Shown here: in pieces, positions 5,415 through 35,152 of the stretch
Layout: the number at the start of each line of letters is the position of its first letter
Position numbering within the stretch: position 1 is the stretch's first letter
NCBI GenBank assembly: GCA_018971485.1
Contig: JAGXAQ010000008.1
Location: 1 to 64,000, forward strand
Length of the DNA stretch: 64,000 bases
Reading direction: 5' to 3'
From: Pseudomonadota bacterium
GTDB lineage: Bacteria; Pseudomonadota; Gammaproteobacteria; Burkholderiales; REEB80
The notes under the pieces: model-generated
Told to the model about the DNA's origin: nothing
What the model saw: only the letters and a program-made list of their open reading frames with translations
Databases searched by the model: none
Position numbers and translations under genes: made by a program

Positions 5415-6386
5415 TTACTGTTGCATGCATGCAAAATTCCATGCATGACTAATAATTGAATCCAGTGCAGGATAATGAGGCTGCCATCCTAATTCAACCT
5501 GTGCACGAGTTGCATCAGCTACAAGATGAGATGGATCTCCAGCACGCCGTGCGACTATCTGAAAGGGCACTGGCTTTCCAGTAACCCGTTTGACCGCCTC
5601 TAGCACCTCCCAAACTGAAAAGCCATGCCCATTACCCAAATTATAAGCGCTACTGGGTGCACCGCTCATCAATGCCTGAAATGCCAGCAGATGAGCAACA
5701 CATAAATCGGTAACGTGAATATAGTCCCGGATACAGCTTCCATCTGCCGTATCATAATCTGTACCAAATATTGTAACTGGATCGGCTTTACCTGCAGCCG
5801 CCTTGAGTAGCAATGGTATCAGATGGGTTTCAGGCAGATGACGCTCCCCTGCCCGCCCCAGCGGATCAGCGCCTGCTGCATTGAAGTAACGCAGACTAAT
5901 CGATTTAAGATCATAAGCTCGTTCATAATCTTGCAGAATCTGCTCCACCATCCATTTACCTTTTCCATAAGGGTTCACCGGATTCTTAGGGTGATCTTCA
6001 GTAATGGGGATGACCTGTGGTTCTCCATAAACTGCTGCTGATGAGGAAAAAACCAGTTTTTTAATCTTATGACGCACCATGGCATTCAACAGGATGATCG
6101 TATTGACCAGGTTATTTTCATAATAGGGGGCGGGTTCTAGAATTGATTCGGCCACCTGGATAAAAGAGGCAAAATGCATGACACCATCAAAATTCATCCT
6201 GCCAAACAAATCATCAAGCAGGGTCGAGTCTGCTATGTTTCCCTTAACCAGGGGGACTCCTTGCACTGCATCTGCATGGCCTTTCGACAAATCGTCCAGT
6301 ACCAGAACGTCATGACCTGTCTCAACAAGTGCCAGAACCATATGGGAACCAATATAACCTGCCCCGCCTACCACCATGATCCGCAT
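5415..6386 (-). CDS. galE: UDP-glucose 4-epimerase
   Basis: A 323-residue short-chain dehydrogenase-type epimerase interconverting UDP-glucose and UDP-galactose in the cytoplasm. The Rossmann NAD-binding motif GGAGYIGSH is at residues 7-15. The catalytic serine region is SSSAAVYG at about 114-121, and Y140 with K144 (YGKGK) forms the YxxxK pair. LRYFNAAGADP and IRDYIHVTDL are further GalE hallmarks. It lies 50 bases downstream of the large glycosyltransferase fusion on the same strand and is probably co-transcribed with it, supplying UDP-galactose for that polysaccharide or glycan. Confidence 0.95.
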   Translation of the reverse strand: MRIMVVGGAGYIGSHMVLALVETGHDVLVLDDLSKGHADAVQGVPLVKGNIADSTLLDDLFGRMNFDGVMHFASFIQVAESILEPAPYYENNLVNTIILLNAMVRHKIKKLVFSSSAAVYGEPQVIPITEDHPKNPVNPYGKGKWMVEQILQDYERAYDLKSISLRYFNAAGADPLGRAGERHLPETHLIPLLLKAAAGKADPVTIFGTDYDTADGSCIRDYIHVTDLCVAHLLAFQALMSGAPSSAYNLGNGHGFSVWEVLEAVKRVTGKPVPFQIVARRAGDPSHLVADATRAQVELGWQPHYPALDSIISHAWNFACMQQ

Positions 6387-6436
6387 ATTATCCAGCCCTT
6401 TCGACCACCAACAAAATAGTTTTCCCTTGTTTGTCT

Positions 6437-9361
6437 CTAAGATACAGTTGGGACAAGAACCCAGGCATATCGAACAGGCAATGCATCAGACTTTAAGAAA
6501 CGAACAATTCGCGTGTAAAAAGGATGCAGGTACCATCCAATATCGGTCCACACCTGAAAAGTAGTACTAGGCTCTTTAACAGAATAAAACAGTATGCATT
6601 TTGAAATACACGGCAACAGATTTTTTAATGTATCTCTCCATTGAGACAGATCAAACTCACCTTCACCCGCATCGCAGATTAGGCAATCAAAAGATTCTTC
6701 TAAAGCTATATTTTCAGATAGGCAGAAAGAAAATTCAGTTGGGCGATCAGTCAAGAAATGGGCATCCAGATAACTGACCCGATTAAAACCTATCTGACGA
6801 AGCTGGTTCACCCATGCTGCCTCATCCTGTCCAATATGCAAGGCCGTATCCAGGTTCAACCTTCTCATCAGATCCTGATATTCCGGAAAAACCATGCTTG
6901 AGGTCTGACCGAGGACTAACTGCTCCATCATATTCGTTAAAACGGATGGCAAGGAATCCACATAAAGATGATCATACTGATGTACAAAACCAACGGCAAA
7001 AGGATCAGCCACGATCACTGTGTCATCTACCCTCGTATAACCTGTTGATTGAGCATAATTCAAGGATATTACAGCTAACTCATCTTCAGTCAGGCAAGGG
7101 TTTTGTTTAAGGCGATCATAAAGAGCATGCCAGTGCCAAGCTTCAGAAGTCTTAGCGATATCGGGATTTTTAGAAAGATTGGCAAGCCAGCCGGATAAAA
7201 TCTTGCAGGATAACTGGCGGGAACTGCGAACAGGGAAATGGGCCAATCTCACACCAGATAACAGGGTATGGGACAATGAAGTCTTATCTGTCTGGGATAC
7301 GGAATGATTACCTTCAGCAATCTCAACCGTCTCAGGATCGATTGCACCAGACACGACTACCTTATAATATCCAGGCGTTTCCTGCTGGCGCCGGAATATC
7401 ATCCTGGCCAGAGTTGACGCCGGGTATTGCCCATCCTGCACAGGCTGGTAAACATAGGTACTCCAGGCTAGAACACCATGATGTCCGGATGGAAGATGGC
7501 CTAGTTCCTCTTCCAATGCAGCCCGGGTAGGGGCCATGATGAATTCATCAGCATCAAGAGCAAAAAGGTAATCCGGACTAAAAACCAGACAGGCCTGTCT
7601 GCATAACTGGCTCATCCGCCTACTTTGAAAATGGCCAAACAGCGGATCATCCTGAACTACCACTGACAGGCCTTCACGTTGCAGCTGGACCAAAATTTCA
7701 CGCGTACCATCAACTGAACCATTATCTACAATAAGAAGGGCATCCAAAAAACGCAGGTTATGCCGGACAAATGACTCAATCACATCTCCCTCATTCCTAA
7801 CGACAGATAACCCTACCAGAACCAATCGAGCCTGGACTGGCTCTGGTTCAAGCAAAGGGGCTTTAACAGGAGTACAAGCCAGAGCAGGGCCAGGTTGAAC
7901 CTGGCTGACCATTTCCATTTCACTAGGGGTTAAACGACGTTTTTTCAACTCAACCAGCATTGAGTCTACCGCCCGGGGAACGGCGGCAATTTTCTCCACA
8001 GGCTCCCCTTTTTTATGTAAGACCTCACCAGCCGGGCTTAACATATACTGAAGTGATGCGAGCTCAAAACGCCAGCGGTTCCAACCTAAATACCAAAACC
8101 AGTCCGTATAATACAGCCAGCTTTTCTCATTAAAGGCGCGCACATGCGTTGGATCCTGCCAAGCACCATAGGACAAATCATACGGCACATTAATCCGAAA
8201 AATTCCGCCCTCCTTCAATAAGGCAAGACAATTGGTCATGGTCATGACCAAATCATTTACATGTTCCAAAACATCGAAGGCTTGAATAAGATCAAAATGG
8301 CCTTCCTGCAGATGTACGTCTCCAAAACGCCTGGTTTTGAAATATAAGCCTGATAGCGGAATGGCCTGACTAATGTCATGAATGACATCCGGATTCCAGG
8401 CCGGATTAATATCCATGTTAAGAAAATCTTCCTTGCTATCTTTCCCGCTTCCTAAATTGAGTTTTAATGGTAAATCCAGTTGACTGGATTTAAGCTGCAT
8501 CGTTTCAAACAAAGCCTGTTTCAATATGGCACTTTGTGGTTTATCGCGTATCAGGCGGAACCCGCTTTGGGCAATAGATTGCCTGCGTTCTGGATCTGCA
8601 GCCAAATCAATACAGGTCTTGACCAGGTTATCATAAGACACCAAGGCCAGACCTGTCGAAAAAGCGTCTTCCATGGGATCCGGGCCCGATTCAGAGACTA
8701 CACAAACCTGATTGGCTAACAGATAGAAAATACGAACTATTTCGAAAATTTTAGATTCATAAAAATGAATATTCAGAACAACTTTTGAACGGGCTATCAA
8801 GGCATCCCGTTCTTGTCCATACACGCCAAAAAGACGAACAACCTTAAGGCCTTGTGCTTCCAAAGCATCTAGAATAACCTGGCGTCTCTGATTCATGGAG
8901 CCATAAAACAACACATCAATATCTTCATCCTGACGGACAATTCGACTTAATTGTGGCACATATCCAAGCGAAACATGACGCACCAAACCAATGTTATGTT
9001 CTTGCATATAGGCAATATTACGTTCACTGTAATCCCAGACCTCATGACTGCGAAGCAAGTCAAGATAGAAATCCTCCAGCCAAACTGAATCTGGATCCAT
9101 TTGCTCCAGATTGAAAATGATGGCTTCAGGATTCACTGAAACAGGGGGCATTTTCGCCAATAAATTAGCCCCCAGCAATACAGGACGGCGACCTGGCTCA
9201 TTAAGATTTGCCGTAACAATCGAATCAATTCCCAATTCAAGCAAACCAAAATGGAGTGCTTCAGCTACCTCAATCAACCCAAGGATATGGGGATAATCAG
9301 GTGGTGCCACCAAGGTAATGGCAAATTTTTCCGACACACTCACTGACTTGAAAGCATCCAT
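6437..9361 (-). CDS. Three-domain glycosyltransferase-methyltransferase-glycosyltransferase fusion
   Basis: A 974-residue protein with no signal peptide or clear membrane segment. Residues 1 to about 285 resemble a GT-B-type (CgeB-like) glycosyltransferase, with DVLFYGSMNQRR, SKVVLNIHFYESKIFE and the SESGPDP donor-site region. Residues 298 to about 430 are a class I SAM methyltransferase: LNLGSGKDS at 301-309, FDVLEHVNDL, and LLKEGGIFRINVPYD. Residues 515 to about 760 are a GT-A/family 2-like transferase with VVRNEGD at 520-526, VDNGSVDGT at 545-553 and the metal site LDADEF at 602-607. The last 170 residues are unassigned. It probably builds and methylates part of a cell-surface glycan. The ATG at 9361 follows a very G-rich SD at unusually short distance, so the exact start is uncertain. 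galE follows in the same direction. Confidence 0.8.
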   Translation of the reverse strand: MDAFKSVSVSEKFAITLVAPPDYPHILGLIEVAEALHFGLLELGIDSIVTANLNEPGRRPVLLGANLLAKMPPVSVNPEAIIFNLEQMDPDSVWLEDFYLDLLRSHEVWDYSERNIAYMQEHNIGLVRHVSLGYVPQLSRIVRQDEDIDVLFYGSMNQRRQVILDALEAQGLKVVRLFGVYGQERDALIARSKVVLNIHFYESKIFEIVRIFYLLANQVCVVSESGPDPMEDAFSTGLALVSYDNLVKTCIDLAADPERRQSIAQSGFRLIRDKPQSAILKQALFETMQLKSSQLDLPLKLNLGSGKDSKEDFLNMDINPAWNPDVIHDISQAIPLSGLYFKTRRFGDVHLQEGHFDLIQAFDVLEHVNDLVMTMTNCLALLKEGGIFRINVPYDLSYGAWQDPTHVRAFNEKSWLYYTDWFWYLGWNRWRFELASLQYMLSPAGEVLHKKGEPVEKIAAVPRAVDSMLVELKKRRLTPSEMEMVSQVQPGPALACTPVKAPLLEPEPVQARLVLVGLSVVRNEGDVIESFVRHNLRFLDALLIVDNGSVDGTREILVQLQREGLSVVVQDDPLFGHFQSRRMSQLCRQACLVFSPDYLFALDADEFIMAPTRAALEEELGHLPSGHHGVLAWSTYVYQPVQDGQYPASTLARMIFRRQQETPGYYKVVVSGAIDPETVEIAEGNHSVSQTDKTSLSHTLLSGVRLAHFPVRSSRQLSCKILSGWLANLSKNPDIAKTSEAWHWHALYDRLKQNPCLTEDELAVISLNYAQSTGYTRVDDTVIVADPFAVGFVHQYDHLYVDSLPSVLTNMMEQLVLGQTSSMVFPEYQDLMRRLNLDTALHIGQDEAAWVNQLRQIGFNRVSYLDAHFLTDRPTEFSFCLSENIALEESFDCLICDAGEGEFDLSQWRDTLKNLLPCISKCILFYSVKEPSTTFQVWTDIGWYLHPFYTRIVRFLKSDALPVRYAWVLVPTVS

Positions 9362-24590: not shown

Positions 24591-24824
24591 TTAAACCGAC
24601 AAATTGCCACGGTGTGACTTAAGCGCGCGAAGTACGAGTTCATTAAGACCTTCACCAGAACGGTGATCGACATGATAAAAAATCCGTGAACGCATGCTCG
24701 GTGCCCAGAATCTTTTAATATGATTGGCAACTCCGGCCTCGGCAAGCGCCTGATCAGGTTCAGCGTTAAAAAAGGCACCTATCTGATTAGCCATATAAAC
24801 CAATGTATCCGTATTATCCTTCAT
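24591..24824 (-). CDS. fdsD: NAD-dependent formate dehydrogenase delta subunit
   Basis: A 77-residue protein with the FdsD pattern LVYMANQIGAFFNAEPDQAL, then VANHIKRFWAPSMRSRI and GLNELVLRAL. FdsD is a small subunit or accessory protein of soluble molybdenum-containing NAD-dependent formate dehydrogenases such as that of Cupriavidus. Its start overlaps the end of fdhD by 11 bases, indicating translational coupling. Length is typical (70-80 residues). Confidence 0.88.
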   Translation of the reverse strand: MKDNTDTLVYMANQIGAFFNAEPDQALAEAGVANHIKRFWAPSMRSRIFYHVDHRSGEGLNELVLRALKSHRGNLSV

Positions 24825-25671
24825 ATCCCTTCTCTTCCTTTTCTATAACCCGTTCAGCATGGCTATAAACCACATGTTGCCGATTACGTGTAAAACCAAG
24901 CAGCGTCAAGCCTGATTCCCCAGCCATTCTGACAGCCAGGGAAGTGGGTGCTGATATGGCAGCAAGAAGTGAAATACCAGCTGTAACGCTTTTCTGTACC
25001 ATCTCATAGCTCGCCCGACTGGTAATCAAAGCCATACCTGATCCTGCATCCAGATCCAGGAAAGCGAGCGCACCAATTAGCTTATCCAGGGCGTTATGCC
25101 TTCCAACATCCTCCCGCACCACCTGAACCTGCCCCTTGGCTGTTGCAAAAGCTGCCGCATGAACTGCTCCGGTTATATGATGCAACTGCTGCAGTTGTGA
25201 CAGTTCATCAAATGCAGCGTGTACGGCATCCCCCTGAACTTCGATTTGACGCGATAAAGGTCTCGGATGTCTGAGCGCATGCGCCAGATTCTCCGCACCA
25301 CAAATTCCACATCCAGTGCGGCCTGTCAGGTTTCTTCGCTTTTCCTTGAGAAAGCGCATCCGATCCCCTGCAATCGTCAATTTCACCTCAATGCCACCAG
25401 AACCGTAATCCGTATTGATATCAAAAATCTCATCCCGACTTACCACAATCTCTTCTGTCAGACTGAAGCCTACTGCAAAATCTTCAAGATCAGAAGGCGT
25501 CGCAAGCATGACTGCATGAGAAATACCGTTATAGACCATTGCTACCGGTACCTCTTCAGCCACATATTCCTCAGACGCCTTCGCCTTGCCTCCCGCAACG
25601 CTTATAGCCCGACATGGCCTGTAACCAGATTCTGCTGTCACCTCAACAACTGGTAAACACTGTCTAAGCAC
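24814..25671 (-). CDS. fdhD: Formate dehydrogenase accessory sulfurtransferase FdhD (FdsC)
   Basis: A protein of about 285 residues that transfers sulfur from IscS to the molybdenum cofactor of formate dehydrogenase, a step needed for activity. The catalytic cysteine loop is seen in GRTGCGICGAENL; EDFAVGFSLTEEIV and REDVGRHNALDKLIG are family hallmarks. I placed the start at GTG 25671, which overlaps the fdsA stop by 8 bases (GTGCTTAG) and follows a GGGAAG SD. A TTG at 25713 would add 14 residues but has no SD. In fds operons this gene is called fdsC. Confidence 0.9.
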   Translation of the reverse strand: MLRQCLPVVEVTAESGYRPCRAISVAGGKAKASEEYVAEEVPVAMVYNGISHAVMLATPSDLEDFAVGFSLTEEIVVSRDEIFDINTDYGSGGIEVKLTIAGDRMRFLKEKRRNLTGRTGCGICGAENLAHALRHPRPLSRQIEVQGDAVHAAFDELSQLQQLHHITGAVHAAAFATAKGQVQVVREDVGRHNALDKLIGALAFLDLDAGSGMALITSRASYEMVQKSVTAGISLLAAISAPTSLAVRMAGESGLTLLGFTRNRQHVVYSHAERVIEKEEKGYEG

Positions 25672-28519
25672 TGACTTCCCGCTTTTCCAGAAGATCCAGC
25701 TGCTCTTTAGCAAAAGCCGTATACTGTTTTTGCCATTGAGAAGGCTGAGTCACGGTTTGAACCTGCACAGCCGTTACCTTGTATTCAGGACAATTAGTCG
25801 CCCAGTCTGAATTTTCGGTCGTAATGACGTTACAACCGGAAAACGGAAAGTGAAAGGTGGTATAAACCACACCTGGCTGCATTCGTTCTGAAATGTTTGC
25901 CCGGAGCACGGTTTCACCAGCGCGGCTGGTTATGCCAACCCAATCTCCGTCCTTGATACCTCTTTCTTCTGCGTCATGAGGATGTATCTCCAGAACATCT
26001 TCCGAATGCCAGCGATTATTATGCGTTCGACGGGTTTGCGCACCCACATTGTATTGCGACAGGATTCTGCCGGTAGTCAATATCAATGGATATTTGGCAT
26101 TTACCTTTTCAGAAGTAGGCACATACTCGGTAATTACAAAATTTCCTTTCCCACGGACAAATTCTTCTATATGCATAATAGGGGTACCAACCGGTGCCTT
26201 ATCATTGCAAGGCCACTGGATACTGCCTAATTCGTCCAGTTTCTTGAAACTCACACCAGTAAAGGTAGGGGTAAGAGAAGCAATCTCATCCATGATTTCT
26301 GATGCATGGCTATAGTTCATAGGGTAGCCTAGTGCATTAGACAGTTTTTGCGTAATTTCCCAGTCTTCATAGCCATTTACCGGGTCCATAACGCGACGTA
26401 CCATCGAAATCCGACGCTCAGCATTCGTAAAGGTTCCGCTCTTCTCAAGAAAAGACGATCCCGGCAAAAATACATGGGCATACATGGCTGTTTCATTAAG
26501 AAACATATCCTGTACAACAATACATTCCATGGATTCAAGTGCTGAAGTTACATGATGGGTATCCGGATCAGACTGCAGGATATCTTCACCCTGCAAATAC
26601 AACCCCCTGAAATTACCATAGATCGCTTCATCAAACATGTTGGGAATGCGCAACCCCGGCTCGCCAGAAAGCTTAACATTCCATTTCGACTCAAACTGTT
26701 CACGAACAGTCTTATCAGATACATGCCGGTAGCCTGGCAGTTCATGAGGGAAAGAACCCATGTCACAGGATCCTTGAACATTGTTCTGGCCCCGCAATGG
26801 ATTTACTCCTACACCTTCTCTGCCCAAATTATTGGTTGCCATAGCGATATTGGCAATACCCATAACTGCAGTTGAGCCCTGGGCATGTTCAGTTACACCC
26901 AATCCATAATAGATAGCTGCATTCTTGGCTGTAGCATAAAGTCGGGCAGCTTCCCGGATCAGGTTTGCACTGACACCTAAATCAGATTCAAGGGCTTCAG
27001 GCGAATTTTTGGGCTGGCTGACAAATGCTGCCCACTTTTCAAATGCAGGAGTTTCACAACGGGCCCTCACAAAACTTTCATCGTACAGTTTCTCAGTCAC
27101 AATCACATGAGCTAACGCATTAAGCATTGCCACATTTGTTCCTGGACGGAGTGGAAGATGATAGTCCGCCTGGATATGGACACTGCTCACCAAATCAATG
27201 GCCCGAGGGTCAATCACAATCAACTTGGCCCCTTCGCGCAGGCGACGTTTCATCTGTGAACCAAAAACCGGGTGCGCATCTGTTGGGTTGGCTCCAATTA
27301 CCAAAATAACATCTGACTTCATAACTGAATCAAAGGTCTGTGTGCCGGCTGACTCCCCAAGAGTCACTTTCAGTCCATACCCGGTAGGAGAATGGCATAC
27401 ACGGGCACAGGTATCGACATTGTTATTACCAAAAGCAGTGCGAACCAACTTCTGGACAACATAGACATCTTCATTCGTGCAGCGGGAAGACGTAATACCC
27501 CCGACAGAATCGACACCATATTTGGCCTGGATACGCTTGAATTCAGATGCAGCATAATTAATCGCCTCATCCCAGCTCACTTCTTTCCAGGCATCCTTAA
27601 TACTCTTGCGGATCATGGGCTTTTTAATACGGTCAGGATGTGTAGCATAGCCCCAGGCAAAACGTCCTTTCACACAGGAGTGCCCATGATTCGCATGCCC
27701 GTTCTTGTCCGGAGTCATATTAACTACACGATTTCCCTGCATTTCCGCAACGAATGAACATCCCACCCCACAATAGGCACAAGTTGTCACTATCTTGTGA
27801 TCAGGTTGTCCATATTCAATAATGGAATTTTCCATCAGTGTGGCGGTAGGGCAAGCCTGTACACACGCTCCGCATGAAACACATTCTGATTCCATGAAAG
27901 CCTGATCCTGAGACGCAGCTACTTTCGAATCAAAAGCACGGCCATCTATTGTAAGGGCAAACGTACCTTGCACCTCCTCACAGGCCCGCACACAACGGGA
28001 GCAAACAATACACTTGGAAGGATCAAAGGTAAAATAAGGATTAGAGGTATCTTTCTCAGCTTTCAGATGATTCTTGCCATCATAGCCATAGCGAACCTCA
28101 CGAAGGCCAACCACCCCCGCCATATCCTGCAACTCACAATCACCATTAGCAGCACAGGTCAGACAATCCAGGGGATGATCAGAAATATAAAGTTCCATGG
28201 TATTGCGACGAAGTTCAGCCAGCTTGTCAGTTTGAGTTTTAACCTCCATTCCTGGCTTAACCAAAGTCGTACAGGAAGCTGGATACCCCCGTTCACCAGC
28301 AATTTCAACCAGGCACAGGCGACAGGATCCAAACGCTTCCAAATTATCGGTTGCACACAGCTTTGGAATATTAATCCCCATTTCCGCCGCAGCGCGCATG
28401 ACTGATGTCCCTTCTGGAACACTAACCTCACGACCATCAATTGACAAGGTTACCATTGTGTCAGACTCTCTTGAAGGCGTGCCCAGGTCCAACTGAAAAA
28501 TTTCACCCATATATGTCAT
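25664..28519 (-). CDS. fdsA: NAD-dependent formate dehydrogenase alpha subunit
   Basis: A 951-residue molybdenum bis-MGD oxidoreductase that oxidises formate to CO2 in the cytoplasm. The N-terminus is NuoG-like: a [2Fe-2S] domain with CATDNLEAFGSCRLC, the His-Cys3 site HPLDCLTCAANGDC, then two [4Fe-4S] clusters in CIVCSRCVRAC and CVSCGACVQACP. The catalytic part begins with the CAYCGVGC cluster, and the molybdenum-ligating cysteine appears in the CARVCHSPTGYGL segment. The C-terminal cofactor-binding domain contains LTTGRILSQYNVG. AAGGAG stands eight bases before the ATG at 28519. It lies 15 bases after fdsB in the fdsGBA order of betaproteobacterial soluble formate dehydrogenases. Confidence 0.95.
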   Translation of the reverse strand: MTYMGEIFQLDLGTPSRESDTMVTLSIDGREVSVPEGTSVMRAAAEMGINIPKLCATDNLEAFGSCRLCLVEIAGERGYPASCTTLVKPGMEVKTQTDKLAELRRNTMELYISDHPLDCLTCAANGDCELQDMAGVVGLREVRYGYDGKNHLKAEKDTSNPYFTFDPSKCIVCSRCVRACEEVQGTFALTIDGRAFDSKVAASQDQAFMESECVSCGACVQACPTATLMENSIIEYGQPDHKIVTTCAYCGVGCSFVAEMQGNRVVNMTPDKNGHANHGHSCVKGRFAWGYATHPDRIKKPMIRKSIKDAWKEVSWDEAINYAASEFKRIQAKYGVDSVGGITSSRCTNEDVYVVQKLVRTAFGNNNVDTCARVCHSPTGYGLKVTLGESAGTQTFDSVMKSDVILVIGANPTDAHPVFGSQMKRRLREGAKLIVIDPRAIDLVSSVHIQADYHLPLRPGTNVAMLNALAHVIVTEKLYDESFVRARCETPAFEKWAAFVSQPKNSPEALESDLGVSANLIREAARLYATAKNAAIYYGLGVTEHAQGSTAVMGIANIAMATNNLGREGVGVNPLRGQNNVQGSCDMGSFPHELPGYRHVSDKTVREQFESKWNVKLSGEPGLRIPNMFDEAIYGNFRGLYLQGEDILQSDPDTHHVTSALESMECIVVQDMFLNETAMYAHVFLPGSSFLEKSGTFTNAERRISMVRRVMDPVNGYEDWEITQKLSNALGYPMNYSHASEIMDEIASLTPTFTGVSFKKLDELGSIQWPCNDKAPVGTPIMHIEEFVRGKGNFVITEYVPTSEKVNAKYPLILTTGRILSQYNVGAQTRRTHNNRWHSEDVLEIHPHDAEERGIKDGDWVGITSRAGETVLRANISERMQPGVVYTTFHFPFSGCNVITTENSDWATNCPEYKVTAVQVQTVTQPSQWQKQYTAFAKEQLDLLEKREVSA

Positions 28520-28534
28520 TTTTATTCTCCTTGC

Positions 28535-30097
28535 CTACAGATTGGCCACTTTGGCATCACCAGCAGCAGCACCAAAGTCTTCCGGGAAATGATTAAGTGC
28601 TGAAAGCACAGGGAAAGGGGTCATCCCCCCCATTGCACAAAGCGAACCATCAATCATGGTCGTACACAGATCACGCAGCAAATGAATCTGTCTTGGACGA
28701 CTATTGTTGGCGATAATCTTGTCTATAACCTCTACACCACGCTGAGATCCAATACGGCATGGTGTACACTTGCCACAGGATTCAATAGCGCAAAACTCCA
28801 TTGCATAACGCGCCTGTTGCGCCATATCGACTGTGTCATCAAAAACAACAATGCCCCCATGACCCAATACCGCTGAGATATCAGAAAATTTTTCATAATC
28901 CAGGGGAACATCAAACTGAGACTCCGGGATATAGGCTCCAAGGGGGCCTCCAACCTGTACAGCCCGAACAGAACGTCCACTTTTCGTGCCAAGACCATAC
29001 TCAAAAATTATTTCTCTCAAGGTCACACCAAAGGCACGCTCAATCAACCCGCCCTGTTTTACGTTTCCGGTAAGCTGAATTGGAAGAGTGCCTCGTGAAC
29101 GTCCCATACCATAATCCTTGTAATAGGCACTACCTTTGTCCAGGATAATGGGAACTGTTGCCAGGGAGATTACATTATTCACAAGAGTGGGTTTACCCAT
29201 GAAACCACTCACAGCAGGCTGGGGGGGGCGATATCGAACCAACCCTCTTTTGCCTTCAAGGCTTTCAAGCAAAGACGTTTGCTCCCCGCAGATATAAGCT
29301 CCTGCAGCACGACGCACTTCCAGATCAAATGAAAAGCCTGATCCACGGATATTATTGCCAAGATAGCCTTTTTCATAGGCAATCTTGATAGCTGCATTCA
29401 ATACATCAAAAGCATGTGGATATTCAGAGCGAAGATAAATATATCCTTGGGCAGCACCAACACCAATGCCGGCAATAGTCATCCCTTCAATCAACACAAA
29501 GGGATCGCCTTCCATAATCATGCGGTCTGAATAAGTACCTGAATCACCTTCATCAGCATTACAAACCACATATTTTACGTCAGATACACTGGCACGGACT
29601 TCCTGCCATTTTTTTCCGGTGCGCCCTGCCGCACCACCACGACCTCGCAATCCGGATGCGCCAATTTCAGCCACTATACCTTCACTACCCAGGCTGATAG
29701 CCCGCTCAAGACCACGATATCCCTCATGATCAATATAATCTTCAATAGACAGCGGACTGGTAATTCCAACCCGCGCAAAAGTCAGCCGTTCTTGTTTAGC
29801 CAAAAATGGAATGTTTTCCGTCAGTCCATGGCCAAGAACATGCTTACCACCGGATACAAACCCCGCATCAAAAAGCCCTGCTACATCTGAAGGCTCAACC
29901 GGACCATACGCTACACGCCCATCAGGAGTTTCCACCTCAACCAAGGGTTCAAGCCAGAGCAGGCCCCGGGATCCATTCCTTACGATGGTTATCTTTTCAT
30001 TTCTTCTGTGAGCTTCCTGCTCAATTTCCACAGCTACCTCATTCGCCCCAACGGATAACGAGGCACTATCCTGTGGAACATAAATCTTGATTGTCAT
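28535..30097 (-). CDS. fdsB: NAD-dependent formate dehydrogenase beta subunit
   Basis: A 520-residue NuoF-like flavoprotein that takes electrons from FdsA and reduces NAD+. An N-terminal thioredoxin-like region is followed by the FMN/NAD domain with GLRGRGGAAGRTGKKWQ and NADEGDSGTYSDR. The segment GAYICGEQTSLLESLEGKRG and the [4Fe-4S] motif ESCGKCTPCRIG near residue 440 complete the family signature. Its start overlaps the fdsG stop by four bases (ATGA), showing tight coupling. Confidence 0.95.
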   Translation of the reverse strand: MTIKIYVPQDSASLSVGANEVAVEIEQEAHRRNEKITIVRNGSRGLLWLEPLVEVETPDGRVAYGPVEPSDVAGLFDAGFVSGGKHVLGHGLTENIPFLAKQERLTFARVGITSPLSIEDYIDHEGYRGLERAISLGSEGIVAEIGASGLRGRGGAAGRTGKKWQEVRASVSDVKYVVCNADEGDSGTYSDRMIMEGDPFVLIEGMTIAGIGVGAAQGYIYLRSEYPHAFDVLNAAIKIAYEKGYLGNNIRGSGFSFDLEVRRAAGAYICGEQTSLLESLEGKRGLVRYRPPQPAVSGFMGKPTLVNNVISLATVPIILDKGSAYYKDYGMGRSRGTLPIQLTGNVKQGGLIERAFGVTLREIIFEYGLGTKSGRSVRAVQVGGPLGAYIPESQFDVPLDYEKFSDISAVLGHGGIVVFDDTVDMAQQARYAMEFCAIESCGKCTPCRIGSQRGVEVIDKIIANNSRPRQIHLLRDLCTTMIDGSLCAMGGMTPFPVLSALNHFPEDFGAAAGDAKVANL

Positions 30098-30579
30098 TTA
30101 CCCTCTCCCTGGAGACGTGCCACCAGTGAATCAAACTTATCTTCTGTCATGCGGCCATGAATCTCATCGCGATCAATCATGATCGCTGGAGCACAGGAAC
30201 AATTGCCTAAACAATAGATTGGCTCAAGACCAAACATCCCGGATTCACTTACTTCATGAAAGTCGAGCCCGAGCCGATTTTTAATATGCACCACCAAATC
30301 ATTGGCTTTCATGGACTGACAGGCTTCAGCCCTGCATACGTGGACAGTATGCTTGGCTGGCGGGGAAGTACGAAAATAATGATAAAAACTAATCACGCCA
30401 TGGACTTCAGCCCGGGATAAATTAAGACCGTCTGCAATTGCCTCCACAGCCTCATCGGGAACATATCCCAAAATATCCTGGATACCATGCAATACTGGCA
30501 GTAGCCCACCGGGGGTATGTTGATGATGCTCTATCACTTTTTGGACCGCCTGACGATCCCAGTCCTGCTGTGCAGTCAT
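30094..30579 (-). CDS. fdsG: NAD-dependent formate dehydrogenase gamma subunit
   Basis: A 161-residue NuoE-like [2Fe-2S] protein, the first gene of the fds operon. The cluster ligands are in VCRAEACQS and in CLGNCSCAPA. LPVLHGIQDILGYVP and GVISFYHYFRT are typical of the NuoE thioredoxin-like fold. GGAAGG lies five to six bases before the ATG at 30579. The operon promoter must be in the 277-base divergent region shared with the regulator gene at 30857. Confidence 0.93.
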   Translation of the reverse strand: MTAQQDWDRQAVQKVIEHHQHTPGGLLPVLHGIQDILGYVPDEAVEAIADGLNLSRAEVHGVISFYHYFRTSPPAKHTVHVCRAEACQSMKANDLVVHIKNRLGLDFHEVSESGMFGLEPIYCLGNCSCAPAIMIDRDEIHGRMTEDKFDSLVARLQGEGK

Positions 30580-30648
30580 AATACCTTCCCAAATTATTCA
30601 CAAAAATTAAATATGCAATATCAAACCAGTTAAATATAGGCATGATTG

Positions 30649-30658
30649 TGCATATGCA
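30649..30658. promoter_or_regulatory. Perfect palindrome in the fdsG upstream region
   Basis: TGCATATGCA is a perfect 10-base palindrome 70 bases upstream of fdsG. A related ATATGCAAT sequence occurs at 30611. Either could be part of a regulator site in the divergent fds promoter region. No known consensus was matched. Confidence 0.3.
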
Positions 30659-30779
30659 ATCCATTACTTTATTACCTGTTAACAATATAGCAAAGGTTTG
30701 GTATTTGAAAAATATGAAAAATAATGCATAGGATAGGGATCAGCCAATTGCAGCAAAATACATATGTTTATTTTTACAT

Positions 30780-30808
30780 ATATTTAATACAGGCTCAATA
30801 TGATACAT
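30780..30808. promoter_or_regulatory. Candidate operator shared with the aldehyde dehydrogenase promoter
   Basis: ATATTTAATACA at 30780-30791 and ATATGATACAT at 30798-30808 recur with two more bases of spacing at 33961-33991, in the other divergent promoter that is controlled by a paralogous regulator. Conservation of 12 consecutive bases, then of ATATGAT-purine-pyrimidine-AT, in two non-coding regions suggests a common binding site. It lies about 50-75 bases before the regulator gene. Confidence 0.5.
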
Positions 30809-30856
30809 TTTTAAAGTTGAACAACTGTATCCACCAGGCAGGGATTAAAACCCACC

Positions 30857-31942
30857 ATGCTCGAAGTCAATATTAAACCTGTATGGCTCTTTCGGACTGA
30901 ATCTGGACAGGATTTTGATCTACAGCTTCTTAACCTATTACGTGAAATTCATGCTACCGGGAAATTGACTCATGCCTCTACAAGGGTAGGGCTGTCCTAC
31001 CGCCATGCATGGAACATGATTGCACGCTGGTCAGATTTTTTTGGCAATCCACTTGTACGGATGGAAAAAGGCCGGGGAGCCAAACTGACCCTCCTGGGAG
31101 AAAAACTGCTTTGGGCAGAAGAAAGAATCCAGGCCAGGCTCGCTCCGCAATTCAAAAATCTTTGCAGTGAACTGGAGCTTGAAATCAACCGCGCACTCAA
31201 CGAGTCCAAACAGGTATTGCGTATTCGGGCAAGTCATGGCTATGCCATTGCAAAACTTGTCGAGCACATGAGCCGCTGCATCGACATCCAACTGGATCTG
31301 CAGTACCTTGGCAGTCGGGAAGCTCTTCAAAGCCTCGAACGGCGCGAATGTGATCTGGCTGGATTCCATATTCCAGAAAGCCTGCTCGGCAAAGAAGCTA
31401 TTGAACGCTTCTACCCTGAATTCCATCGGCGACCCATGACTACCATTCACTTTGTCACCAGACGCCAGGGGCTAATTCTTGCCAAAAACAACCCTTTGAA
31501 ACTTAATGGCTTTCAGGACATTACACAAAAGAATGCGCGCTATATCAACCGCCAGCATGGCTCAGGTACACGCATGCTATTTGAATTACTCCTCGAACAT
31601 CACGGAATACAAAAAGAAACAATAAATGGCTACCAGCAGGAAGAATTCACACACGATGCTGTCGCCGCATTCGTGGCAAGCGGGATGGCTGATGCAGGCC
31701 TTGGAATTGAAGCTGCAGCCCGTCATTTTAATCTTGACTTTATTCCCCTGGCACGAGAACACTACATGCTCGCCTGTCGTCCGGAAGCAGTAGATACGCC
31801 CTATATCCGTGATTTGCTCATCCTGCTTAAGACACCCAGCTTTCGAGAAGCAATTAACAACATTCCAGGCTATGCCGCACCCCTTGCCGGGGTTCTTGCC
31901 AAACCAGGTGAACTCTTTGGCGAACAGCCCACCCAGCCTTGA
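30857..31942 (+). CDS. ModE-like HTH regulator with PBP-like ligand domain (paralogue 1)
   Basis: A 361-residue regulator. Residues 1-110 resemble the winged-helix N-terminus of ModE: LLREIHATGKLTHASTRVGLSYRHAW, then FFGNPLVRMEKGRGAKLTLLGEKLL. The rest is a PBP-like domain of the molybdate-binding type (RIRASHGYAIAKL, ECDLAGFHIPE, GSGTRMLFELLL, HDAVAAFVASGMADAGLGIE). It is divergent from the molybdenum-dependent formate dehydrogenase operon, so I infer that it controls fds, perhaps sensing molybdate, formate or another small anion. This is not the LysR-type FdsR known from Cupriavidus. About half of its residues are identical to those of the protein encoded at 34076-35152. Confidence 0.8.
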   Translation: MLEVNIKPVWLFRTESGQDFDLQLLNLLREIHATGKLTHASTRVGLSYRHAWNMIARWSDFFGNPLVRMEKGRGAKLTLLGEKLLWAEERIQARLAPQFKNLCSELELEINRALNESKQVLRIRASHGYAIAKLVEHMSRCIDIQLDLQYLGSREALQSLERRECDLAGFHIPESLLGKEAIERFYPEFHRRPMTTIHFVTRRQGLILAKNNPLKLNGFQDITQKNARYINRQHGSGTRMLFELLLEHHGIQKETINGYQQEEFTHDAVAAFVASGMADAGLGIEAAARHFNLDFIPLAREHYMLACRPEAVDTPYIRDLLILLKTPSFREAINNIPGYAAPLAGVLAKPGELFGEQPTQP

Positions 31943-32434
31943 CAAAAAAATCGAATCATTTCCATTTAAGAACCTATTGCACCCTAAATCTCAGGAAAAT
32001 AATGGCGCTATTTCTGCTGTTCAACCTTACATATGTCTTCTGTTTTGTAAAAAGAACCACTTCAAGACCATCTACTAGTTTAGCAGCAGAATTCTGTCTG
32101 GAAATCTAACGCTATCTATGCGGCAACAACAAATCGAGACTTACTGGTGAATACCGGTTTCAAATCGGAATTACTTTTTCGAATGTTCATCTATCGGCAT
32201 GCAACCACCATCAGCAATCACCTCATTTATTACCGCTACCTGAACTGTTTTTCAAACAAGTTGTTACATATGAAACAGGTCACCAAGTTTCTGGGCTAAT
32301 CCGCCCCTGTCTTTTCACAAAACACATGATTCAACAAAGTAGCTGAAACCAGCCTTCCAACGATAAGAATGCACCTAATCAAAAAAAAGGCCGGGGGAGA
32401 GCCGGCCAAAGGAGACAACAGGAGATAAAATCGC
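31943..32434. other. Intergenic region between regulator 1 and aldehyde dehydrogenase
   Basis: About 490 bases without a supported gene. The only clear element is the minus-strand terminator at 32381-32407. A short antisense-type frame reading from regulator 1 into this region has no ribosome binding site and was not accepted. Confidence 0.6.
32381..32407 (-). terminator. Rho-independent terminator of the aldehyde dehydrogenase gene
   Basis: On the minus strand GGCCGG, a seven-base loop and CCGGCC are followed by eight T residues, 28 bases after the aldehyde dehydrogenase stop. This is a textbook GC stem with a U tract and implies a monocistronic transcript. Confidence 0.9.
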
Positions 32435-33898
32435 TTATGCTGCCTTTTGTTTCAAATTAATCCAGACTACCTTCGATTCCGTGTAATGGTCAAGGACCTC
32501 CCTCCCTCGTTCACGACCTATTCCTGAATCTCCAGAACCGCCCCACGGCAGACGAATATCTGTCGGACCATAAGTGTTCACCCATACCGTTCCTGCCTTA
32601 AGTCGAGATGATAGCGTATGGGCTCGGGTAATGTCCTGGCTCCAGACTGCTGCAGCCAGGCCATAACGAGTGCCATTGGCCATGGCAATAGCCTCGTCCT
32701 CGCTCTTGAACCGCAATACGGATGCAACAGGCCCAAAAATTTCTTCCTGGGAAATTCTCATATCATGCTTTACATTGGCAAATACTGCGGGACTCAGAAA
32801 ATAACCTTTGTTACCCAGCCGCTCACCACCCGATACAAGACTTGCCCCTTCTTTCTCACCTATATGGATATAATCCATTACCCGGTTCATCTGGGATTCA
32901 GAAATGAGAGGTCCCATCAGGGTTTGAGGATCAAGTGGATCTCCTACCCGCATCGTTCTGGCCCGCTGGGCCAGACGCTCTACAAAATCGTCATACACCG
33001 ATTCTTCCACCAGAATACGCGAACCCGCTGAACAAACCTGACCAGAATTAAAAAAAATCCCGCTTGAAGAAGCCTTGACTGCTGCATCCAGATCCGCATC
33101 CGCAAAAACCACGTTTGCCGATTTTCCACCCAATTCAAGCCCAACACGCTTAAAACTACCGGCAGCAGCAATCATCATGTTACGCCCTACATCCACCGAC
33201 CCGGTAAAAGAAATAAAATTCACGTCAGGATGTTCAACCAACGCTTGACCCGTTACCCTGCCACTACCTGGAACTATATTAAACACCCCTGGCGGAATAC
33301 CAGCTTCAATCGACAGCTCAGCCAGTTTAAGAACAGACAACGGGGTCAAGGCAGCAGGCTTAAGCACAACCGTACAGCCAGATGCAAGTGCGGGTGCAAT
33401 TTTCCACATGGCAATCATCAATGGAAAATTCCAGGGCACAATGGCCGCTACCACTCCAACCGGTTCACGCACTGTATAAGTCAATGCATCTGTACGGGCC
33501 GGGATAACCTCCCCGTGAATCTTGTCGGCCCAGCCTGCATAATAGCGAATGGTATCAAGAGCTGCAGGCACATCCTGACGCAGTACGGCACTAATAGGCT
33601 TACCCGCATCCAAACTTTCAAGCCTTGCCAGTTCATCACTATTTTTCTCGATGAGATCAGCATACCCCATCAAAATCCGGCTCCGCTCAGCAACACTCAT
33701 TCTGGCCCATGGGCCTTTTTCCAAAGCATGCCGTGCTGCCATAACTGCCTTGTCTACATCTTCAGCAGATGCCTCAGAAACCATGCCAATCATTTCACCC
33801 GTTGCAGGATTAATGGTTGAAAAAGTATTTCCTGTTGATGAATCAACCCAATGGCCATTTATAAATAAACGATAACAGGGTATATCGATTCTTTTCAT
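32435..33898 (-). CDS. NAD(P)-dependent aldehyde dehydrogenase
   Basis: A 487-residue aldehyde dehydrogenase of the betaine/acetaldehyde-type ALDH superfamily, oxidising an aldehyde to the acid in the cytoplasm. VPWNFPLMIAMWKIAPAL and the cofactor loop FTGSVDVGR are seen; the general base glutamate is in LELGGKSA and the catalytic cysteine in NSGQVCSAGSR. The C-terminus has WVNTYGPTDIRLPWGG. GGAGGT stands eight bases before the ATG at 33898. It is divergent from regulator 2 and shares an operator-like element with the fds promoter, suggesting induction together with formate oxidation. The substrate cannot be fixed from sequence. Confidence 0.92.
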   Translation of the reverse strand: MKRIDIPCYRLFINGHWVDSSTGNTFSTINPATGEMIGMVSEASAEDVDKAVMAARHALEKGPWARMSVAERSRILMGYADLIEKNSDELARLESLDAGKPISAVLRQDVPAALDTIRYYAGWADKIHGEVIPARTDALTYTVREPVGVVAAIVPWNFPLMIAMWKIAPALASGCTVVLKPAALTPLSVLKLAELSIEAGIPPGVFNIVPGSGRVTGQALVEHPDVNFISFTGSVDVGRNMMIAAAGSFKRVGLELGGKSANVVFADADLDAAVKASSSGIFFNSGQVCSAGSRILVEESVYDDFVERLAQRARTMRVGDPLDPQTLMGPLISESQMNRVMDYIHIGEKEGASLVSGGERLGNKGYFLSPAVFANVKHDMRISQEEIFGPVASVLRFKSEDEAIAMANGTRYGLAAAVWSQDITRAHTLSSRLKAGTVWVNTYGPTDIRLPWGGSGDSGIGRERGREVLDHYTESKVVWINLKQKAA

Positions 33899-33960
33899 GT
33901 AGCACCTCCAAATGACTTGCCAGACAGCTTTTAAACCCTTAATATAAGAGATGTTGCATC

Positions 33961-33991
33961 ATATTTAATACATAAATAACATATGATGTAT
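33961..33991. promoter_or_regulatory. Candidate operator, copy 2 of the fds-region element
   Basis: ATATTTAATACA (33961-33972) and ATATGATGTAT (33981-33991) match the element at 30780-30808, with a spacer of eight rather than six bases. The same stretch holds the inverted repeat CATCATAT (33957-33964) and ATATGATG (33981-33988). It lies between the divergent aldehyde dehydrogenase and regulator 2 genes, about 60-90 bases from each start. Confidence 0.5.
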
Positions 33992-34004
33992 ATAGCATAT
34001 ATAC
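33988..34004. promoter_or_regulatory. ModE-box-like palindrome
   Basis: GTATATA-GCA-TATATAC is a perfect 7-base inverted repeat around three bases. ModE boxes contain TATATA half-sites, so this fits the ModE-like DNA-binding domain of the adjacent regulator, although spacing differs from the E. coli site. Confidence 0.45.
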
Positions 34005-34075
34005 ATATAATTTAACATCCATAAATAGTAATTTAACACTGTTTGTTATAAATAAAAATATGAGGTGTATTTCAT

Positions 34076-35152
34076 ATGATTGAAGTCAATTTAAAAGCTG
34101 TTTGGCTCTTTAGCACTCCAGCAGGGCATGAGAAGGAAGTTCCTATATTCAACCTCCTGCAGGCTATCGACAATACAGGCAAATTAACGTTTGCCGCCAG
34201 GGAAGTGGGCTTATCCTATCGCCATGCATGGGATCTACTCGAAAAATGGGGGCAGTTTTTTGGTCAGCCACTCGTAAAGATGAAACAGGGGCGGGGAGCT
34301 ATTCTAACCCCTCTAGGCGATAAACTTATCTGGGCGGATAAGCGGGTTAAAGCAAGACTCACAGCCCAGCTAACCAACCTGGCATCTGAACTCGAAGTGG
34401 AAATCAACCAGATTGTCTCAAGCGAACGGCATGTTGTGAAACTGCATGCAAGCCATGGATTTGCAGTAGCCGAGATGCGGGAACGGCTGCACAACAATCC
34501 TTATGTCCAACTTGATCTTCAATACCGGGGCGGAGAAGAGGCCTTAGCCGAGCTTTGTCGCTCTGAATGCGATCTTGCAGGCTTTCATGTGCCCACCGGA
34601 GCAGCCCGAAAAGAATCTCTTGCACGTTATGCCAAATGGCTCAAGCCCAGTAAAAACTACCGGGTCATCCGTTTTGTAACAAGGCAACAGGGAATTATGG
34701 TCAAGAAAGGCAATCCACTAGGCATCACCAACCTATCTGATATTTCTCATGAGCCAGTACGATTTGTAAATCGGGAACCAAGTTCAGGTACACGCATGCT
34801 CTTTGACATTCTGCTTGAACAGCAAAATATCCCCGCCCACCAGATTCAAGGCTACCAGAAAGAAGAACTTACGCATAACGCAGTAGCAGCCTATGTGGCC
34901 AGTGATATGGCAGACGCTGGGTTTGGCGTTGAAGCAGCCGCAAGGCAATTTAGCCTGGATTTCATCCCCTTAAACCAGGAGGACTATTATCTACTCTGTC
35001 GATTTGAAACACTTGAAAAACCAGGCGTCAAGGAAATTATCAAGCTTCTCCAGAATGAAGACTTTCAGCAAGCCATTATGCAGCTACCCGGGTATTCCTC
35101 CCGGAATGCAGGTGAAATTGCAACCTTGACAGATGAATTTCACACCGGATAA
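34076..35152 (+). CDS. ModE-like HTH regulator with PBP-like ligand domain (paralogue 2)
   Basis: A 358-residue regulator with the same architecture as the protein at 30857-31942: a ModE-type winged helix (NTGKLTFAAREVGLSYRHAW, GQPLVKMKQGRGAILTPLGDKL) followed by a PBP-like domain (KLHASHGFAVAEM, ECDLAGFHVPTG, SSGTRMLFDILL, HNAVAAYVASDMADAGFG). By eye about 55 of the first 100 residues are identical. GAGGTG lies nine bases before the ATG. It is divergent from the aldehyde dehydrogenase and probably regulates it and itself through the palindromic sites between them. The ligand may differ from that of paralogue 1. Confidence 0.8.
   Translation: MIEVNLKAVWLFSTPAGHEKEVPIFNLLQAIDNTGKLTFAAREVGLSYRHAWDLLEKWGQFFGQPLVKMKQGRGAILTPLGDKLIWADKRVKARLTAQLTNLASELEVEINQIVSSERHVVKLHASHGFAVAEMRERLHNNPYVQLDLQYRGGEEALAELCRSECDLAGFHVPTGAARKESLARYAKWLKPSKNYRVIRFVTRQQGIMVKKGNPLGITNLSDISHEPVRFVNREPSSGTRMLFDILLEQQNIPAHQIQGYQKEELTHNAVAAYVASDMADAGFGVEAAARQFSLDFIPLNQEDYYLLCRFETLEKPGVKEIIKLLQNEDFQQAIMQLPGYSSRNAGEIATLTDEFHTG

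Follow-up and report, generated by a model that had tools for sequence, protein, structure and literature searches.

Do two neighboring divergent promoters in a bacterial genome share an operator, and if so, which DNA element is it and what might it respond to? The question is raised by a 64,000-nucleotide stretch (the window) from a Pseudomonadota bacterium of the Burkholderiales lineage REEB80 (assembly GCA_018971485.1, contig JAGXAQ010000008.1, positions 1 to 64,000 of the forward strand). In it, an fds operon for an NAD-linked formate dehydrogenase diverges from the gene for regulator 1, and a gene for an aldehyde dehydrogenase (ALDH) diverges from the gene for regulator 2. An initial annotation had proposed that both promoters carry a common operator under two paralogous, ModE-like regulators. 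Comparisons of sequence make it very probable that both intergenic regions indeed carry the operator of one regulator family, characterized by a ModE-like winged helix and a PF12727 sensor domain, and that this operator is the dyad ATATG-N10-CATAT. The proposal of a shared operator therefore holds in that a common dyad is present at both promoters, whereas the element that had been drawn, together with its spacing, does not.

A 20-bp dyad in the two intergenic regions

The element common to both intergenic regions is a 20-bp dyad, ATATG-N10-CATAT, with the consensus ATATGMA-N6-TKCATAT. In the 1.93-Mb genome to which the window belongs (G000), the exact dyad is found at exactly three sites, all of them in the fds and ALDH intergenic regions (Table 1), and the reversed control pattern is found at none. 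In the sole congener compared (G001), the two gene pairs are present and arranged alike, with an orthologue of regulator 1 (88% identical) by fds and an orthologue of regulator 2 (87%) by the ALDH gene. Its aligned places match all of the window dyads with at most one mismatch, except for the copy at 34058. When the two regions were shuffled, the dyad appeared in both in 0 of 20,000 trials. A wider inverted repeat, CATAT-N16-ATATG, was the initial idea; it matches the two loci of the window but fails in the family at large, and was replaced by the N10 form.

The element delimited in the initial annotation was a different one, ATATTTAATACA followed after 6 or 8 bp by ATATGATRYAT. Its coordinates and letters are exact at both loci, and a motif search of the 1.93-Mb genome returns the two-block pattern at these two places only. 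That this element could itself be the operator is nevertheless barely credible. The points in its favor are its restriction to just two places in the genome and the rarity of the full composite, defined post hoc, in local shuffles (10/10,000). However, it is missing at both G001 loci despite the presence of both gene pairs, and conservation in related genomes was a test that the annotation itself had named. Furthermore, its 12-mer occurs with up to one mismatch in no other of the approximately 190 upstream regions of the family, save at one different position in G001, and its register relative to the dyad differs between the fds and ALDH loci, though the two overlap at both. Whole-window shuffles contained 0 matches to the element; the fair null is obtained by shuffling the two intergenic regions themselves, which are AT-rich (25-30% GC). 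Under this null, a shared 12-mer arises in 126 of 2000 shuffled pairs, and 719 of 1000 shuffles match or exceed the best local alignment of the two regions. Since G001 lacks the element, shared 12-mers are common in shuffles, and the composite is post hoc with one block (the right one, at the ALDH locus) inside the predicted operator, the element as delimited is mostly coincidence. The palindrome GTATATA-GCA-TATATAC, which had also been noted, is present at approximately 33988-34004, but was rejected as an operator, as it is missing in G001.

Table 1. Genes, dyad copies and previously delimited elements of the two loci (window coordinates)
Feature	Coordinates	Strand	Basis or remark
fdsD-like small ORF, 77 aa, final gene of the fds cluster	24591..24824	-	identity from position and size only
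fdhD/fdsC, formate dehydrogenase accessory sulfurtransferase	24814..25713	-	TIGR00129 218 bits, cut-off 140.9; PF02634
fdsA, NAD-linked Mo/W formate dehydrogenase alpha subunit	25664..28519	-	TIGR01591 932 bits, cut-off 666
fdsB, NuoF-like subunit	28535..30097	-	PF01512, PF10589
fdsG, NuoE-like subunit, gene 1 of the fds operon	30094..30579	-	NF004638 220 bits, cut-off 198
dyad copy ATAGGCATGATTGTGCATAT, 1 mismatch, ~57 bp upstream of fdsG start	30636..30655	.	exact ATATG-N10-CATAT at aligned place in G001
dyad copy ATATGAAAAATAATGCATAG, 1 mismatch	30712..30731	.	1 mismatch also at aligned place in G001
dyad ATATGTTTATTTTTACATAT, exact, starts -95 from regulator 1	30762..30781	.	one of 3 exact genome sites; conserved in G001
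previously delimited element, fds locus	30780..30808	+	only its first 2 bp inside fds dyad; not conserved in G001
regulator 1, FdsR-like by position; ModE/LysR-type winged helix and PBP_like PF12727	30857..31942	+	domain searches, AlphaFold model
NAD(P)-dependent aldehyde dehydrogenase (ALDH)	32435..33898	-	PF00171; none of the NCBIfam equivalog cut-offs reached
previously delimited element, ALDH locus	33961..33991	+	last 11 bp are left part of ALDH dyad; not conserved in G001
dyad ATATGATGTATATAGCATAT, exact, starts -95 from regulator 2	33981..34000	.	exact dyad at aligned place in G001
dyad ATATGAGGTGTATTTCATAT, exact, starts -18; right half contains start of regulator 2 ATG	34058..34077	.	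not matched in G001
regulator 2, paralogue of regulator 1, divergent from ALDH	34076..35152	+	domain searches, pairwise comparison

The fds cluster looks complete, comprising fdsG, fdsB, fdsA, fdhD/fdsC and a small ORF at the place of fdsD. Approximately 490 bp between the ends of the regulator 1 and ALDH genes (31943-32434) are without a convincing gene. An Rfam search of the region gave no match, and a promoter scan gave 8 predictions against 7.0 in shuffles; the operators could consequently not be positioned relative to promoters.

The dyad across the regulator family

The association of the dyad with these regulators extends well beyond the window. In a set of upstream regions of this regulator family drawn from the order (the order set), whose two ALDH regions are those of the window and its congener, the dyad with a spacer of exactly 10 is found in 45 of 110 upstream regions (29/52 fds, 2/2 ALDH and 14/56 other), while any other spacer from 2 to 20 gives at most 2 in each group and shuffles give about 0. 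Protein similarity was used to gather a second set of 81 upstream regions; the named genomes that supplied them are mostly those of alpha- and gammaproteobacteria. Here, the dyad is exact in 65 regions and present with at most one mismatch in 80, the next best spacer giving 7 exact. Across 188 distinct regions, 76/90 fds, 35/36 ALDH and 42/62 other regions have one or more sites with no more than one mismatch. A matrix built from 268 distinct sites reads ATATGMA-N6-TKCATAT, with TATGMA-N6-TKCATA as its inner part.

The dyad also has preferred positions. Its start positions peak at -18, the commonest in the family, and at -94 to -98 from the regulator start. At fds loci, where the preferred arrangement is a copy near -18 together with another near -95, 46 sites begin at exactly -18 and the second site is mostly found at -94 to -98, that is, 76-80 bp upstream. 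In 37 of 192 upstream regions, the regulator start is embedded in a CATATG. As the dyad runs into the start codon, hardly any space is left for a ribosome-binding site, and the transcript may be leaderless where an operator sits at -18.

The dyad is AT-rich and has isolated copies elsewhere in other genomes, as would be expected if a global or nucleoid factor with no particular relation to these regulators used it as a general site. We give this idea hardly any credence, as the window genome has the dyad at these loci only, and over several classes the dyad tracks the regulator gene at the preferred positions.

Several observations do weigh against reading the dyad as the operator of this family. 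It was identified from sequence alone, after having been spotted by eye in fdsG-regulator intergenic regions that are part of the order set. About one in six fds regions and one in three other regions, including most of families f2 and f42, are without a site at up to one mismatch, indicating that the box has drifted or been lost in places. No dyad with up to one mismatch lies upstream of a third paralogue, regulator 3, in either G000 or G001. Lastly, many of the sampled genomes are closely related (Bradyrhizobium, Halomonas, Pseudomonas), and the counts do not represent independent events; nonetheless, the pattern spans several classes.

With the dyad as the operator, each regulator is predicted to bind its own dyads as a dimer. 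Autoregulation would follow when the -18 copy, which overlaps the start codon of regulator 2, is occupied, the upstream copies would control the divergent operon (fds or ALDH), and sites 76-80 bp apart would probably cooperate. A small anion, be it formate, molybdate or tungstate, may change DNA binding when it occupies the C-terminal domain. Cross-binding of the two regulators between the loci would be expected, since the winged-helix motif and the operator sequence are common to both. The direction of control, like the ligand, we infer.

The regulators and their sensor domain

The two regulators are paralogues, 50% identical over 349 aa, and their DNA-binding winged helix is ModE-like but also LysR-like, though under curated cut-offs; both points had been claimed, as paralogy and ModE-likeness, in the initial annotation. 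The model of the ModE N-terminal DNA-binding domain (TIGR00637) gives 40.4 and 49.9 bits (E 2e-10 and 3e-13) against a cut-off of 98.5, which indicates that the regulators are related to this domain, below its cut-off. Similarly, the LysR-type Pfam gathering scores were not reached by HTH_1 (25.3 and 24.9 against 26.6) or by LysR_substrate (27.7 in regulator 1 against 28). The C-terminal domain is PF12727 (PBP_like), at 202 and 203.8 bits against a cut-off of 27. The AlphaFold model (pLDDT 88.8), which has a PBP-like C-terminal domain, and comparisons with PDB entries reveal a LysR-type architecture of winged helix, linker helix and two-lobe PBP effector domain, and the top Foldseek matches are full-length LysR-type structures. 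The winged-helix motif SYRxxW is invariant among 35 aligned relatives. As defined here, the family is that of PF12727/ModE-like regulators with an ATATG-N10-CATAT operator, and both features are found for both regulators. In each of the two genomes of the genus, the gene for regulator 3 (G000:C32:6163-7251, also given as 6184-7251, L035; L034:8032-9120 in G001:C262) and a short-chain dehydrogenase gene are convergent.

These regulators resemble several known types without coinciding with any. With LysR-type regulators such as BenM, CatM, CbnR and OxyR they share the winged helix, the linker helix, a PBP-type effector domain and the divergent gene arrangement, but HTH_1 and LysR_substrate are below the Pfam cut-offs and the effector domain is PF12727. 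The winged helix is of the ModE type at a low score; however, the C-terminal part of ModE consists of tandem molybdate-binding domains (PMC545781), in place of which PF12727 PBP_like is found here. The ModE box, ATCGNTATATA-N6-TATATANCGAT (PMC545781), likewise has two 6-bp half-sites starting TAT with N6 spacing, as in TATGMA-N6-TKCATA, but the letters of the half-sites are unlike. No TATATA-N6-TATATA within two mismatches was found at the loci, and there was one chance-level match elsewhere.

By gene position, regulator 1 corresponds to FdsR, likewise the regulator of an NAD-linked molybdenum formate dehydrogenase operon, fdsGBACD, in Cupriavidus necator (Ralstonia eutropha) H16: the regulator gene adjoins and diverges from the fds operon in the window, in the congener and in about 90 sampled loci. 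The likeness is one of position, and an ALDH-paired paralogue is not described for C. necator in the papers found. No open paper describing this operator was found; it may already be partly described by Oh and Bowien (1999, cited in PMC8808070), whose title speaks of "dual control" of fds by fdsR.

In its two-lobe PBP fold, the sensor domain comes near to proteins that bind phosphate, molybdate or tungstate and also to effector domains of the LysR type (Z 16-18.6). An invariant R232 and a near-invariant T238 are found at the spacing of R118 and T124 of TupA, residues implicated in tungstate binding (PMC5517513), with S126 and D279 as candidate counterparts. Because of this fold and this arginine/threonine spacing, the ligand is likely an anion. 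Formate is favored by the C. necator formate dehydrogenase/FdsR system, which is formate-inducible (Km about 130 uM; PMC7057948), if FdsR belongs to this family. Molybdate or tungstate is favored by gene context, as relatives of the regulators adjoin TupA/TupB-family tungstate-transporter-like genes (below equivalog cut-offs). Other relatives adjoin genes for an MFS protein of the lactate or oxalate-formate antiporter kind and for FdhF/YdeP oxidoreductases.

A TupA- or ModA-like reading of molybdate or tungstate rather than formate has, in our estimate, slightly less than an even chance of being correct, and it is a rival only to the formate variant of the preferred explanation, leaving the operator itself untouched. 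The fold comparison (PstS-type Z 18.6, ModA 17.1, TupA 3lr1 16.1), the R232/T238 spacing, the tup-like neighbors and two dyads that precede a tupA-like gene in genome G007 are all consistent with this notion. However, LysR effector domains score nearly as high (16.9), such that the fold does not separate LysR-, ModA-, TupA- and PstS-type ligands, and the arginine/threonine pair is not specific for tungsten or molybdenum. The formate inducibility of the Cupriavidus system also argues for formate, and some of the targets (the MFS transporter and ALDH) need no metal. The G007 gene (dyads at L250:4074-4206, G007:C92) is not beside a regulator gene and is a possible target in trans.

Origin of the two pairs and the ALDH partner

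The initial annotation had also regarded the two pairs as a duplicated module. Had a recent local duplication produced both regulator/target pairs, the shared DNA would be residual homology and not a selected operator. The genes are neighbors and the regulators are 50% identical, as this would require, but such an origin is highly unlikely. Forcing the window regulators, with their G001 orthologues, into one clade is rejected (p-AU 0.0165), as is forcing together the ALDH-linked regulators (p 1e-8), although long branches in the tree call for caution. Regulator 2 groups with a Novimethylophilus regulator (support 100/97), and regulator 1 stands apart on an open fork. The rejection of the joint clades disfavors recent tandem duplication, and furthermore, the two intergenic regions align no better than their shuffles and the same dyad is found in unrelated genomes. 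The pairs also occur separately in many genomes: fds with its regulator in Pseudomonas, Halomonas, Marinobacterium, Azoarcus and others, and an ALDH 61-68% identical to that of the window, with a regulator, at 33 loci that are nearly all alphaproteobacterial, including Bradyrhizobium, Afipia, Mesorhizobium and Labrys. It seems that the ALDH pairing arose, or moved, more than once.

A clue to the role of the ALDH comes from these loci. In 8 of the 33, the gene following ALDH encodes a formyl-transferase-type protein that is closest to the hydrolase domain of 10-formyltetrahydrofolate (10-formyl-THF) dehydrogenase (3e-60); the genes are L139:1239-2210 (323 aa) and its matches in L140, L143, L149, L177, L178, L180 and L200. 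The ALDH may accordingly act on one-carbon (formyl) units, in which case its pairing with fds would be sensible. The ALDH and the hydrolase-like protein could together constitute a split 10-formyl-THF dehydrogenase. The product of the post-ALDH gene resembles the N-terminal hydrolase domain of ALDH1L1; in contrast to ALDH1L1, the proteins here are separate, no carrier domain is seen, and the relative in the window genome is encoded elsewhere. This relative, 54% identical to the formyl hydrolase, is found at C4:99490-100389 (L248:6488-7411) and not at the ALDH locus. The gene lies directly downstream of a formyl-CoA/CoA-transferase-like gene, with a malic-enzyme-like gene nearby. The proposal that the regulators co-ordinate formate and aldehyde oxidation, which we infer as the initial annotation did, gains some weight from the formyl-hydrolase neighbors of the ALDH relatives.

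A more far-reaching scheme, which we regard as unlikely, is that one operator code and an oxyanion-sensing family tie molybdenum/tungsten status to the choice of one-carbon disposal. Metal-dependent fds would be one route and a metal-free split 10-formyl-THF dehydrogenase (ALDH with a separate formyl hydrolase) the other, and in some genomes the regulon would also include tungstate uptake.

The predicted operator is well supported and belongs to a known kind of regulator, while the ALDH module was unexpected. Soluble formate dehydrogenases have a central place in biotechnology built on formate, yet the open papers found say little about the DNA code that governs them. A compact and well-conserved operator would allow targets to be predicted in many genomes, and the ligand of the PF12727 domain becomes directly testable. 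The ALDH module takes its place in the same regulatory family as fds.

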